Virus record (IMG/VR): IMGVR_UViG_3300025138_000155
Coordinates: 1 to 34,719 of that record
Length of the DNA: 34,719 nucleotides
Reading direction: 5' to 3' (one strand)
DNA from: a virus
Shown here: piece after piece, positions 779-31,331 of the stretch
How positions within the stretch are numbered: position 1 is the stretch's first letter
How the letters are laid out: each line of letters opens with the position of its first letter
The notes under the pieces: generated by a model
Seen by the model: only the letters and a program-made list of their open reading frames with translations
Told to the model about the DNA's origin: nothing
Databases searched by the model: none
Program-made: the position numbers and the translations under genes

Positions 779-872
779 CGCGCTTTGGCGCGCTGAAAAA
801 CGGCGGTTCCCGCTGTTTGCCCTAATCCTGCGGCTTGGGCAACCGCGCGGATCGAACGTCGTGATGACGTCC
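779..872 (+). promoter_or_regulatory. Structured leader of the capsid gene with conserved ACGTC/GACGT hairpin
   Basis: The 138-base gap before the capsid gene holds several stems: CGCGC-TTTG-GCGCG at 779-792, GCGG/CCGC around a 9-base loop at 830-846, and ACGTC-GTGAT-GACGT at 856-870. The last two recur in the same order before the tail tube gene, and the last recurs before the gene at 30801. A TGGAGGCCC ribosome site follows at about 885. The recurrence before the gene groups needing most product suggests an RNA element or protein site for expression or stability. The function is inferred; the repeats and stems are visible. Confidence 0.6.
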
Positions 873-4118: not shown

Positions 4119-4135
4119 GTTTTTCACGCCTTTTC

Positions 4136-4172
4136 GCGGCTTAGGCACCCGCTCTTGAACGTCGGATGACGT
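4136..4172 (+). promoter_or_regulatory. Structured leader of the tail tube gene, second copy of the conserved hairpin
   Basis: GCGG at 4136-4139 pairs with CCGC at 4149-4152 around a 9-base loop (CTTAGGCAC), and ACGTC at 4159-4163 pairs with GACGT at 4168-4172 around GGAT. Both elements, with the same order and similar loops, occur before the capsid gene. An AAGGAG ribosome site follows at about 4187. Confidence 0.6.
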
Positions 4173-4200
4173 CCATTTTCCCACAGAAGGAGCCACGACA

Positions 4201-4641
4201 ATGGCAAAGCAACTTGGGCGCGGCTTGCTGCTGGCGCTTGGCACAGAGGCCGATGGCGATGCAAACGCAAATGACACTTATACAACAATTGCAGGCATCA
4301 ATTCAAAGTCTTTAACAATCAACAATTCGCCAATCGATGCAACAACGCCAGTTGATGGCGCTGAAGCTGGCGTGATCTGGTCTGAGAGTTTGTCTGGTCT
4401 GAAACAGATGACGATCAGCGGAGATGGCATTTTTGCTGGCACGACCAGCTTGGACGCATTTAACACGCTAGTTCTCTCGGCCAGCCCAATTAGAAACATC
4501 AAGATCACTGTGCCAAGTTTTGGGGCATATTATGGCGCGTTCCATGTTGATAGTTTTGAGATGGGCGGCGAGACTGAAGGCGCTGTGACGTTTTCGATCA
4601 GCCTATCATCTTCAACATTGGTCACATTCGTCGCTGATTAA
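4201..4641 (+). CDS. Major tail tube protein
   Basis: Tail tube subunit, 146 residues, of the phage major tail protein family. It starts MAKQLGRGLLLALGT, then YTTIAGINSKSLTINNSPIDATTPVDG, the characteristic tube-protein pattern (G....i.s....i.......D.t....). GETEGAVTFSISLSSSTLVTFVAD at the end is typical of a beta-sandwich tube protein. It has its own leader with a strong ribosome site, fitting a product needed in a few hundred copies per virion. Its stop overlaps the chaperone start by one base. Confidence 0.9.
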   Translation: MAKQLGRGLLLALGTEADGDANANDTYTTIAGINSKSLTINNSPIDATTPVDGAEAGVIWSESLSGLKQMTISGDGIFAGTTSLDAFNTLVLSASPIRNIKITVPSFGAYYGAFHVDSFEMGGETEGAVTFSISLSSSTLVTFVAD

Positions 4642-28802: not shown

Positions 28803-30152
28803 ATGAAAACCGCAGAGTTTTTTGAGCATAAAGTTTCCAATGTAACTGATCTTATCCCCTACGCATTAAACAGCCGCACGCACAGCGACCAACAAATTGC
28901 CCAGCTTGCGGCGGCTATCAGAGAGTTTGGTTTTACGAACCCAGTGCTGGTCGATGAAGAAAATAACTTAATTGCTGGACACGGTCGGTTGTTGGCGGCG
29001 CGCAAATTAAAAATGGAGCAGGTGCCGTCTATTGTTGTCGCCGGTTTGGATGATCGGCGCAGGCGCGCGCTGGTTATTGCTGACAATAAACTGGCGCTAA
29101 ATGCTGAATGGGACGTTGAGGCGCTTGGCGTTGAGCTTGATGACTTGGCCGAGGAATTTGGCGAGTTGATGGGCTTCAGCCAAGATGAACTTGTCGCGTT
29201 ATTAACACCAAGTGAGGCAAGCGAAGAAAATAAAGGAGTTGGCTCTCTAGCTGAGCGTTTTGGAGTTTCTCCATTTAGTGTTTTAAATGCGCGCGAAGGA
29301 TGGTGGCAAAATAGAAAACGCGGTTGGCTCAACTTAGGCATTAAAAGCGAAGTTGGACGAGATATTGATCCAACAAATGTAGCGGCAAATTTACCAGATG
29401 GACATTACATGGCGGGACGCGGAAATAATGAAGGCGGTTCTATATTTGATCCAGTTCTATGCGAAATGGCTTATACTTGGTTCTGTCCTCCAAGCGGCAC
29501 CATTGTTGATCCGTTTGCTGGCGGGTCGGTACGTGGCATTGTCGCCAGCGTATTAGGCCGTCAATATGTGGGCCACGAATTACGAAAAGAGCAAGTGGAA
29601 GCAAACCGGTCGCAGTCAATAGAAGTTTGCGCCGACCCTCAACCTGTTTGGCATGTTGGCGATAGTAGAAACATTGATAAAAATTGTTCTGATGTTAAAG
29701 CCGATTTTATTTTTAGCTGTCCACCGTATGCTGATCTTGAAGTTTACAGCGACGATCCAGATGATATTTCAAATATGCCATATGAAAAGTTTTTGACCAT
29801 ATACACTGAAATAATTGGCAAGTCTTGCGCACTTTTAAAACAAGACGCTTTTGCGTGTTTTGTTGTTGGCGAGGTGCGTGATAAAAATGGCAACTTTAGA
29901 AATTTTGTTGGCGACACAGTCCAAGCATTTAGATCGGCAGGTTTGCATTTCTACAACGAAGCGATACTTGTGACTGCGGTTGGGTCATTGCCAATTCGAG
30001 CAACTAAACAATTTAACGCTGGACGAAAGTTTGGAAAAACTCATCAAAATGTTTTGGTTTTTGTAAAAGGTGACGGCAAGCGGGCCACAAAAAATTGCGG
30101 CCCAGTCAATGTTTATGTGCAAGAAAATCAGGAAGAAAGTGAAGCTGCGTAA
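28803..30152 (+). CDS. ParB-domain DNA methyltransferase
   Basis: A 449-residue two-domain protein. Residues 10-110 are a ParB-like domain (HSDQQIAQLAAAIREFGFTN and LIAGHGRLLAARKL, GHGR at 59-62). Residues 150-430 are a DNA methyltransferase: DPFAGGSVRG (236-245) is the AdoMet motif and SCPPY (305-309) the catalytic motif, in the order motif I then motif IV, so a class different from those with DPPY first. The RFGVSPFSVLNAREGWWQNRKRGWLNLGI segment is typical of this phage family. Adenine N6 or cytosine N4 methylation cannot be told. It may protect phage DNA or mark replicated DNA for packaging. Small terminase upstream, 6 bases. Confidence 0.85.
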   Translation: MKTAEFFEHKVSNVTDLIPYALNSRTHSDQQIAQLAAAIREFGFTNPVLVDEENNLIAGHGRLLAARKLKMEQVPSIVVAGLDDRRRRALVIADNKLALNAEWDVEALGVELDDLAEEFGELMGFSQDELVALLTPSEASEENKGVGSLAERFGVSPFSVLNAREGWWQNRKRGWLNLGIKSEVGRDIDPTNVAANLPDGHYMAGRGNNEGGSIFDPVLCEMAYTWFCPPSGTIVDPFAGGSVRGIVASVLGRQYVGHELRKEQVEANRSQSIEVCADPQPVWHVGDSRNIDKNCSDVKADFIFSCPPYADLEVYSDDPDDISNMPYEKFLTIYTEIIGKSCALLKQDAFACFVVGEVRDKNGNFRNFVGDTVQAFRSAGLHFYNEAILVTAVGSLPIRATKQFNAGRKFGKTHQNVLVFVKGDGKRATKNCGPVNVYVQENQEESEAA

Positions 30153-30757: not shown

Positions 30758-30772
30758 GCGTCGTGATGACGC
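30758..30772 (+). promoter_or_regulatory. Third copy of the conserved hairpin (GCGTC-GTGAT-GACGC)
   Basis: GCGTC (30758-30762), loop GTGAT, GACGC (30768-30772), same loop as the capsid copy. Both stem bases of one pair differ from the capsid copy (A-T changed to G-C), so pairing is conserved while sequence changed. ATGGAGGCC ribosome site follows, as before the capsid gene. Confidence 0.65.
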
Positions 30773-30800: not shown

Positions 30801-31331
30801 ATGGCTATCACTACAGAATTGTCTAAATTCTTTAAGCAAGAATTGCTCAAAGGTTCACATGATTTCGATTCGCACACGTTTCGCGTCGCTTTGATTAAAG
30901 TTGGCGCGGCGCGCAACTACAACAAGGACGTCGGGTCATACTCATATTTGACTGGCGGTCCAATTTCTGCAGGCGAGAGCGATCCAAGCGCGGCATCCGA
31001 TCAGGTTACTGGCACAGGATACGACAGCACATTCGACACGTTTGCGACCGGCGCGCAGGCTGTGCTTGCCACGACAACACCTGCGGGAGCGTCGATTACT
31101 TATCCAGCGATTGATGGTGATAAAGCGATCATTGACTTTGCTGACAGCGTGTTTTCTTCGGTGACGGTCAGCGCGATTGGTTGTATCCTGTACAATGCAA
31201 GCATGTCGGCTGCGTCCAACAACTTGATTGCCTCGTTTGATTTTGGTGGAACAGTCAGCGCGACCGCTGGAGATTTCACTGTGCAATTTCCTACCCCAGA
31301 CGCTTCGAACGCAATCTTGCGGATAGCGTAG
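30801..31331 (+). CDS. Virion protein of marine-phage type
   Basis: A 176-residue protein starting with a helix (MAITTELSKFFKQELLKGSHDFDSHTFRVALIK), then a beta-rich, Gly/Ser/Thr/Ala-rich body with TGTGYDSTFDTFATGAQAVLATT, DGDKAIIDFADSVFSSVTVSAIGCILYNAS, DFGGTVSATAGDFTVQFP. This pattern is common in marine phage structural proteins whose gene precedes other adhesin genes. It has a strong leader (conserved hairpin, GGAGG site) so it should be abundant. Possibly a head fiber or decoration protein. Confidence 0.7.
   Translation: MAITTELSKFFKQELLKGSHDFDSHTFRVALIKVGAARNYNKDVGSYSYLTGGPISAGESDPSAASDQVTGTGYDSTFDTFATGAQAVLATTTPAGASITYPAIDGDKAIIDFADSVFSSVTVSAIGCILYNASMSAASNNLIASFDFGGTVSATAGDFTVQFPTPDASNAILRIA

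Follow-up and report, generated by a model that had tools for sequence, protein, structure and literature searches.

A candidate H-type pseudoknot leader with an optional hairpin cassette ahead of major virion genes in phages

The uncultivated virus record IMGVR_UViG_3300025138_000155 was analyzed as one stretch of 34,719 nucleotides, hereafter the window. Pfam and PHROG profile matches identify head and tail genes in it, including connector genes. A prohead protease gene (206–760) is followed on the plus strand by a major capsid gene of the HK97 type (899–2146; Pfam PF05065, 4.1e-52; phrog_10) and a major tail tube gene (4201–4641; Pfam PF06199, 1.7e-21; phrog_1407). Farther along the plus strand lies a gene (30801–31331) whose product belongs to phrog_644, labeled 'function unknown', and for which the AlphaFold model was too poor for use (pLDDT 55). 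Proteins of phrog_644 (the window copy and loci L100–L179) are widespread in phage contigs. A single open reading frame at 28803–30152 combines a ParB-like nuclease domain with an N6/N4 DNA methyltransferase domain.

A first-pass annotation, made from the letters alone, had proposed that three similar hairpins each stand just before the ribosome site of a structural gene. All three are present on the plus strand (856–870, 4159–4172 and 30758–30772), 14–17 nt ahead of a Shine–Dalgarno (SD) sequence. The first two precede the capsid and tail tube genes as described, but the third precedes the phrog_644 gene, which has no structural assignment. Judged within the window by itself, the 15-mer exceeds chance only weakly (two matches; 18 of 100 shuffles reach two). 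Nested folding of both window leaders gave ordinary stability (z about −0.95 relative to shuffled sequence), although such energies are uninformative for a pseudoknot. The significance of the hairpins derives from covariation among relatives.

The capsid leader, all on the plus strand, contains more than the hairpin. Its 5′ part is a hairpin, P1 (798–818; AAACGGCGG-TTC-CCGCTGTTT), which is kept in the pseudoknot-bearing capsid leaders of the clade. The pseudoknot follows at 819–846, assigned from covariation and from a scan with compensated and broken S1 helices (below). Helix S1 pairs 819–822 (GCCC) with 837–840 (GGGC) and helix S2 pairs 830–833 (GCGG) with 843–846 (CCGC), connected by loops L1 (823–829), L2 (CTT, 834–836) and L3 (AA, 841–842). 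The P4 cassette (849–878) comprises the inner hairpin ACGTC-GTGAT-GACGT (856–870), with a covarying inner stem, and an outer stem GGAT (849–852)/ATCC (875–878), identified by reading the sequence and from variants in relatives (GGAA/TTCC in L016, GAAA/TTTC in L183 and GAAAT/ATTTC in L191 and L198). The SD GGAGG and its conserved extension (GGAGGCCC) occupy 886–893.

The tail tube leader has a pseudoknot at 4128–4152, on the plus strand, recognized by the same structure in tube relatives: S1 pairs 4128–4131 (GCCT) with 4143–4146 (AGGC), so that a C–G pair of the capsid S1 has become T–A, and S2 pairs 4136–4139 (GCGG) with 4149–4152 (CCGC). The P4 hairpin ACGTC-GGAT-GACGT (4159–4172) and the SD AAGGAG (4187–4192), followed by CC, come next on the same strand. 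A second shared stem, GCGG/CCGC with 9-base loops, had been annotated at 830–846 and 4136–4152; the pairing is there, but it is one half of the pseudoknot rather than a separate stem, its 9-base loop carrying the 3′ strand of S1. The third copy (30758–30772, plus strand; GCGTC-GTGAT-GACGC, then CATCCTAATAAATGGAGGCC) is P4 only, without a pseudoknot, in the divergent intergenic region in front of 30801–31331, and its hairpin is retained in L100–L102 despite differing flanks.

P1 in the window is no intrinsic terminator, as GCCC comes next and the only T's are the TTT of its own stem, and the window pseudoknot and P4 have no T-run of the kind that defines one. Terminator-like P1 hairpins do occur at some other loci. 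Terminator-like hairpins with T-tracts were also seen directly before tube or sheath ribosome sites, an odd position inside a structural operon: in L202 (phage 16-3) before 8028, in L495 before 6001, in L536 (Azospirillum phage Cd) before 9001 and in L398, L430 and L497. Some of these loci have the pseudoknot and some do not.

Among capsid homologues from IMG/VR, the protease–capsid interval is a compound structure of P1, pseudoknot, optional P4, GGAGGCC and start. P1 takes the form AACRGCGG-loop-CCGCTGTT in capsid leaders and sits 0–4 nt ahead of the pseudoknot. The pseudoknot consensus reads S1 GCCN, L1 of 3–12 nt and S2 of 3–5 bp in the 5′ half, and L2 of 3 nt (mostly CTT; YNU), S1 N′GGC, L3 AA or AN and the S2 3′ strand in the 3′ half. 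Tube genes share the same pseudoknot, in homologues with identities down to 31%, and in most tube leaders (26 of 39) the upstream gene has GCC as its final sense codon, which forms part of S1, and its stop codon lies in L1. At 151 of 174 pattern loci the upstream reading frame stops within the P1 region. The total leader is compact, at about 27–80 nt.

Covariation was assessed on leaders found through protein homology together with two leaders from named phages. The core anchor fixed GCC/GGC and the spacing, which makes the first three S1 pairs uninformative, and left the fourth S1 pair and S2 free. Where one leader held several anchors the best-paired was taken, a mild bias in the following values. 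Across 35 distinct cores, 97.9% of cells are paired, 40 cells are double-changed (8.2 in shuffles) and the covariation score is 0.491 (0.120 in shuffles). Shifting the partner by one column lowers pairing to 34–36%. The fourth S1 pair occurs as CG, UG, UA, GC and AU, and S2 pairs occur as GC, CG, AU or UA. This covariation, together with the compensated-versus-broken scan below, shows an H-type RNA pseudoknot with two interleaved helices. The P4 loop is constant (GUGA/GUGAU/GGAU/GAGAU) and the P4 stem covaries in two sets, with 96% and 93% of cells paired and 11 double-changed cells per set, a number that none of 500 shuffles reaches in either. P1 covaries more modestly, with two-sided changes at two pairs among the pseudoknot-bearing capsid leaders of the clade. 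The earlier proposal that pairing rather than sequence is conserved is borne out by these compensatory changes in P4 and the pseudoknot. The hairpin that it took for the element is real, but is an optional cassette on the 3′ side of an H-type core, and the P1 helix had been overlooked.

A blind scan of IMG/VR compared a compensated S1 (GCCG..CGGC) with a broken one (GCCC..CGGC) at constant S2. The compensated variant gave 72 unique matches, 37 of them in virion-gene leaders by our reading of the contexts, and the broken variant gave none among 16 unique broken-only matches. Two broken-variant matches were flagged under a loose rule and appear to be coding sequence. A further scan with one form (S1 GCCC, S2 GCGC) returned at least 120 stretches; among the matches listed, 73 of 80 examined are followed, after 16–74 nt, by a gene with a ribosome site. 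Because the S2 letters were constant in these scans, some gene classes may be missed, and the actual count and range are likely to be larger. A loose pseudoknot descriptor run over all loci was too noisy to use (696 matches, 764 in reversed sequence), with 335 matches before a start compared to 182 reversed.

The genes behind the leader are diverse. Named profile matches among 32 diverse downstream proteins are to head proteins, major capsid proteins of the HK97 and gpE types, several tail tube families and tail sheath proteins; some tube families are classed by PHROG as 'minor tail protein' (phrog_290), and a podophage fiber model in Pfam is matched by one protein. When all loci are pooled, the distinct proteins downstream of 226 leaders group into 12 families by BLAST, two of them chance-like. 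The downstream capsid, tube, sheath or head genes make up about eight to ten families with no relationship to one another. Covarying matches upstream of capsid and tube genes of relatives, which the first-pass annotation had named as its test, were thus found on a scale beyond its proposal and extend to sheath genes; its association with high-copy virion genes likewise holds across unrelated capsid, tube and sheath families. One strict form of the core occurs at most twice per phage in 16 long virus records; where checked, the pair is capsid plus tube.

Host assignments are limited to the named isolates and a single genome class. Named carriers at tube genes are Sinorhizobium phage phiLM21 and Rhizobium phage RHph_N28_2, whose tube proteins have 82–85% identity to the query and whose leaders differ at both helices (S1 GCCG/CGGC versus GCCT/AGGC; S2 GCCC/GGGC versus GCAC/GTGC). 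Aurantimonas phage AmM-1 carries the leader at a sheath gene, Pan4, Mae-JY02 and Mel-JY03 at a major tail gene and Yong-M2-251 at a tube gene; Ssp-JY39 has a core match in a BLAST scan. Pan4, Mae-JY02, Mel-JY03 and Yong-M2-251 (L531–L534) are labeled as cyanophages, with stated hosts that may be open to question, and two of the four have annotated gene-transfer-agent-like tail genes. Rhizobium phage 16-3, RHph_TM3_3_14B and Labrenzia vB_LagS-V1 (capsid identity 49–53%) are without the element.

In 385 Alphaproteobacteria, the pseudoknot pattern had ten matches, one a clear prophage tail tube leader (L363) and the others chance-like; the compensated pattern had a single, chance-like match, and a capsid protein search found one distant relative. 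A pattern match at ilvE was rejected, as it belongs to a different, nested-hairpin leader. In one alphaproteobacterial family (L499–L528), a different conserved leader stands upstream of a branched-chain aminotransferase-like gene; it runs TAGGC..., an inner G+C hairpin, then GCAAG/GGCAAGGCC directly before the gene, adjoins a promoter-like CTTGCG...TATAAT and looks like another structured leader. Searching 84,980 genomes with the P4 sequence alone gave 41 matches that lie inside genes and appear to be chance. P4 was also met without the pseudoknot in viral loci L180, L185 and L199; the L180 copy, before a terminase-like gene, is probably chance.

The distance to the SD is quantized. In nearly all capsid and tube leaders it is 5–10 nt from the pseudoknot without P4 and 32–43 nt with P4. 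Over 112 distinct downstream proteins, related sequences and hence non-independent events included, it clusters at 5–17 and 33–40 nt, and a hairpin of at least 4 bp is found in 48 of 52 long spacers and 6 of 60 short ones. Three loci (L400, L417 and L617) have a spacer of 58–72 nt with two tandem P4-like hairpins, as if the cassette had been duplicated. Distances that step with zero, one or two P4 copies, together with hairpins in the long spacers, indicate that P4 is an inserted, optional cassette between the pseudoknot and the SD. The SD itself tends to be followed by CC or GCC: the motif GGAG(G)CC is present at 138 of 148 GGAG genes with the pseudoknot and 115 of 1,106 without, and mainly tracks P4 (91 of the 95 leaders that have a P4, 65 of the 131 that lack one), in counts that again include related sequences. 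The SD of capsid leaders is slightly more accessible than under shuffled upstream sequence (0.44 versus 0.36). A nested alternative fold pairs the 3′ strand of S1 with the GCCC behind the SD.

We consider that the element is probably a cis-acting leader that boosts translation initiation on the highest-copy virion proteins, perhaps by recruiting ribosomal protein S1 or the 30S subunit. The tie between its distance and the SD points to translation initiation, gene identity and spacing suggest high expression, and the somewhat more open SD favors an activating leader. Carried in a polycistronic message, the pseudoknot would mark and expose the ribosome site of the capsid, tail tube or sheath gene, such that the virion gene could outtranslate its low-copy upstream neighbor, whose stop codon often falls within the element. 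Physically, the likeliest route would be that the 30S subunit is recruited or positioned by the leader, with ribosomal protein S1 as a possible intermediary. Against activation, the gain in SD accessibility is small and capsid relatives at 49–53% identity manage without the element; the nested alternative means that the leader could also repress, and the fixed spacing could reflect a protein operator overlapping the SD. That the alternative fold would make the pseudoknot an anti-sequestering switch is rated low, because the fourth base of the alternative pairing apparently does not covary. More speculatively, and with some doubt, the pseudoknot may be a portable, autonomous, IRES-like 30S-recruiting module passed between unrelated phages and used only at the highest-copy virion genes, with P4 as spacer or booster and with the SD-overlapping GCC competing for the 3′ strand of S1, so that the site would open only once the knot has folded.

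Phages need capsid and tube subunits by the hundred, but few copies of the neighboring proteins that the same message encodes. If confirmed, a common RNA module on unrelated capsid, tube and sheath genes would be a general answer to how virion stoichiometry is set in phages whose hosts include rhizobia and marine bacteria, among others. The leader could also provide a sequence marker that locates the major virion genes of unknown phages independently of protein homology, and at its small size may serve as a compact expression part.

Several other roles were weighed. After endonuclease cleavage, the capsid or tube message might be shielded at its new 5′ end by the pseudoknot, raising its half-life, while P1 might guard the 3′ end left on the upstream message. 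The close apposition of P1 and pseudoknot, the frequent upstream stop codon in the P1 region and the terminator-like T-tract hairpins ahead of the pseudoknot in L398, L430 and AmM-1 fit such processing; the quantized SD spacing is left unexplained by it, many tube copies lack P1 and have the stop codon inside L1, and we regard this role as unlikely. The strongly conserved loop letters (YNU, AA and GUGA) and a GGAG(G)CC that overlaps the SD, which the alternative pairing would hide, could instead indicate an operator at which a host or phage RNA-binding protein or a ligand represses or times translation of all major virion genes jointly, in the manner of T4 gp32 acting on the gene 32 leader (PMC3014915) or of a translational riboswitch. 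Downstream proteins that are non-homologous speak against autoregulation by one product, no Rfam aptamer matches, and eight to ten unrelated families, with virion copy number rather than protein family in common, fit an expression element better; a joint operator seems rather improbable.

P4 resembles boxB in size and terminator-like hairpins lie nearby, as a nut- or put-like antitermination site or an attenuator might have it; however, its position is tied to each gene's own SD and is not promoter-proximal, two copies occur per operon and there is no promoter room between P1 and pseudoknot, which makes a transcription element very improbable. Chance, or shared ancestry of non-functional sequence, would suit the weak statistics of the window by itself, but is already refuted by covariation, the compensated-versus-broken scan and the unrelated downstream families, and its probability is negligible.

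Rfam 15, including SAM-II and preQ1, gave no match in the window at E values up to 5, and in 22 pseudoknot-bearing loci a few chance matches far under gathering scores. We found no description of the leader in the literature; Fremin, Bhatt and Kyrpides reportedly compiled a large catalog of candidate phage RNAs in 2023, in which an unannotated entry is possible. H-type leader pseudoknots are a known structure type, and it is the modular build and the apparent restriction to unrelated high-copy virion genes for which we found no earlier description. The translational riboswitches SAM-II, common in Alphaproteobacteria, and preQ1 likewise place a compact H-type pseudoknot near the SD, but the phage element has no Rfam match and does not precede metabolic genes. 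The nut boxB of lambda and the put sites of HK022 are small conserved RNA hairpins in phage transcripts that act in promoter-proximal antitermination, whereas the present element is tied to the SD of single genes, a location that argues against a nut site.

A published precedent is the ribosome-standby leader of Escherichia coli tisB, in which an H-type pseudoknot upstream of the ribosome site, as in the phage element, is required for binding of ribosomal protein S1 and 30S and for translation; the same work cites nanomolar affinity of ribosomal protein S1 for an H-type pseudoknot (PMC7708055). The tisB pseudoknot stands at the processed 5′ end of a toxin mRNA whose sequestered ribosome site is some 100 nt away, with helices S1 of 9 bp and S2 of 5 bp (PMC7708055), whereas the phage element lies 5–17 nt from the SD, inside an operon, with 4 + 4 bp and before virion genes. 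In the rpsO operator, too, a pseudoknot located at the ribosome site contacts ribosomal protein S1 and the 30S platform (PMC3014915, PMC7708055), but this operator serves S15 autorepression and no virion genes, a distinction drawn from its published description. The T4 gene 32 leader shares an H-type pseudoknot upstream of the ribosome site in a phage mRNA, there located 67 nt upstream of the start of one gene and serving gp32 autorepression (PMC3014915). The phage element, by comparison, precedes many non-homologous virion genes at a fixed close spacing with an optional P4, and recurrence of the same pseudoknot before some eight to ten unrelated families argues against autoregulation of the gene 32 type.
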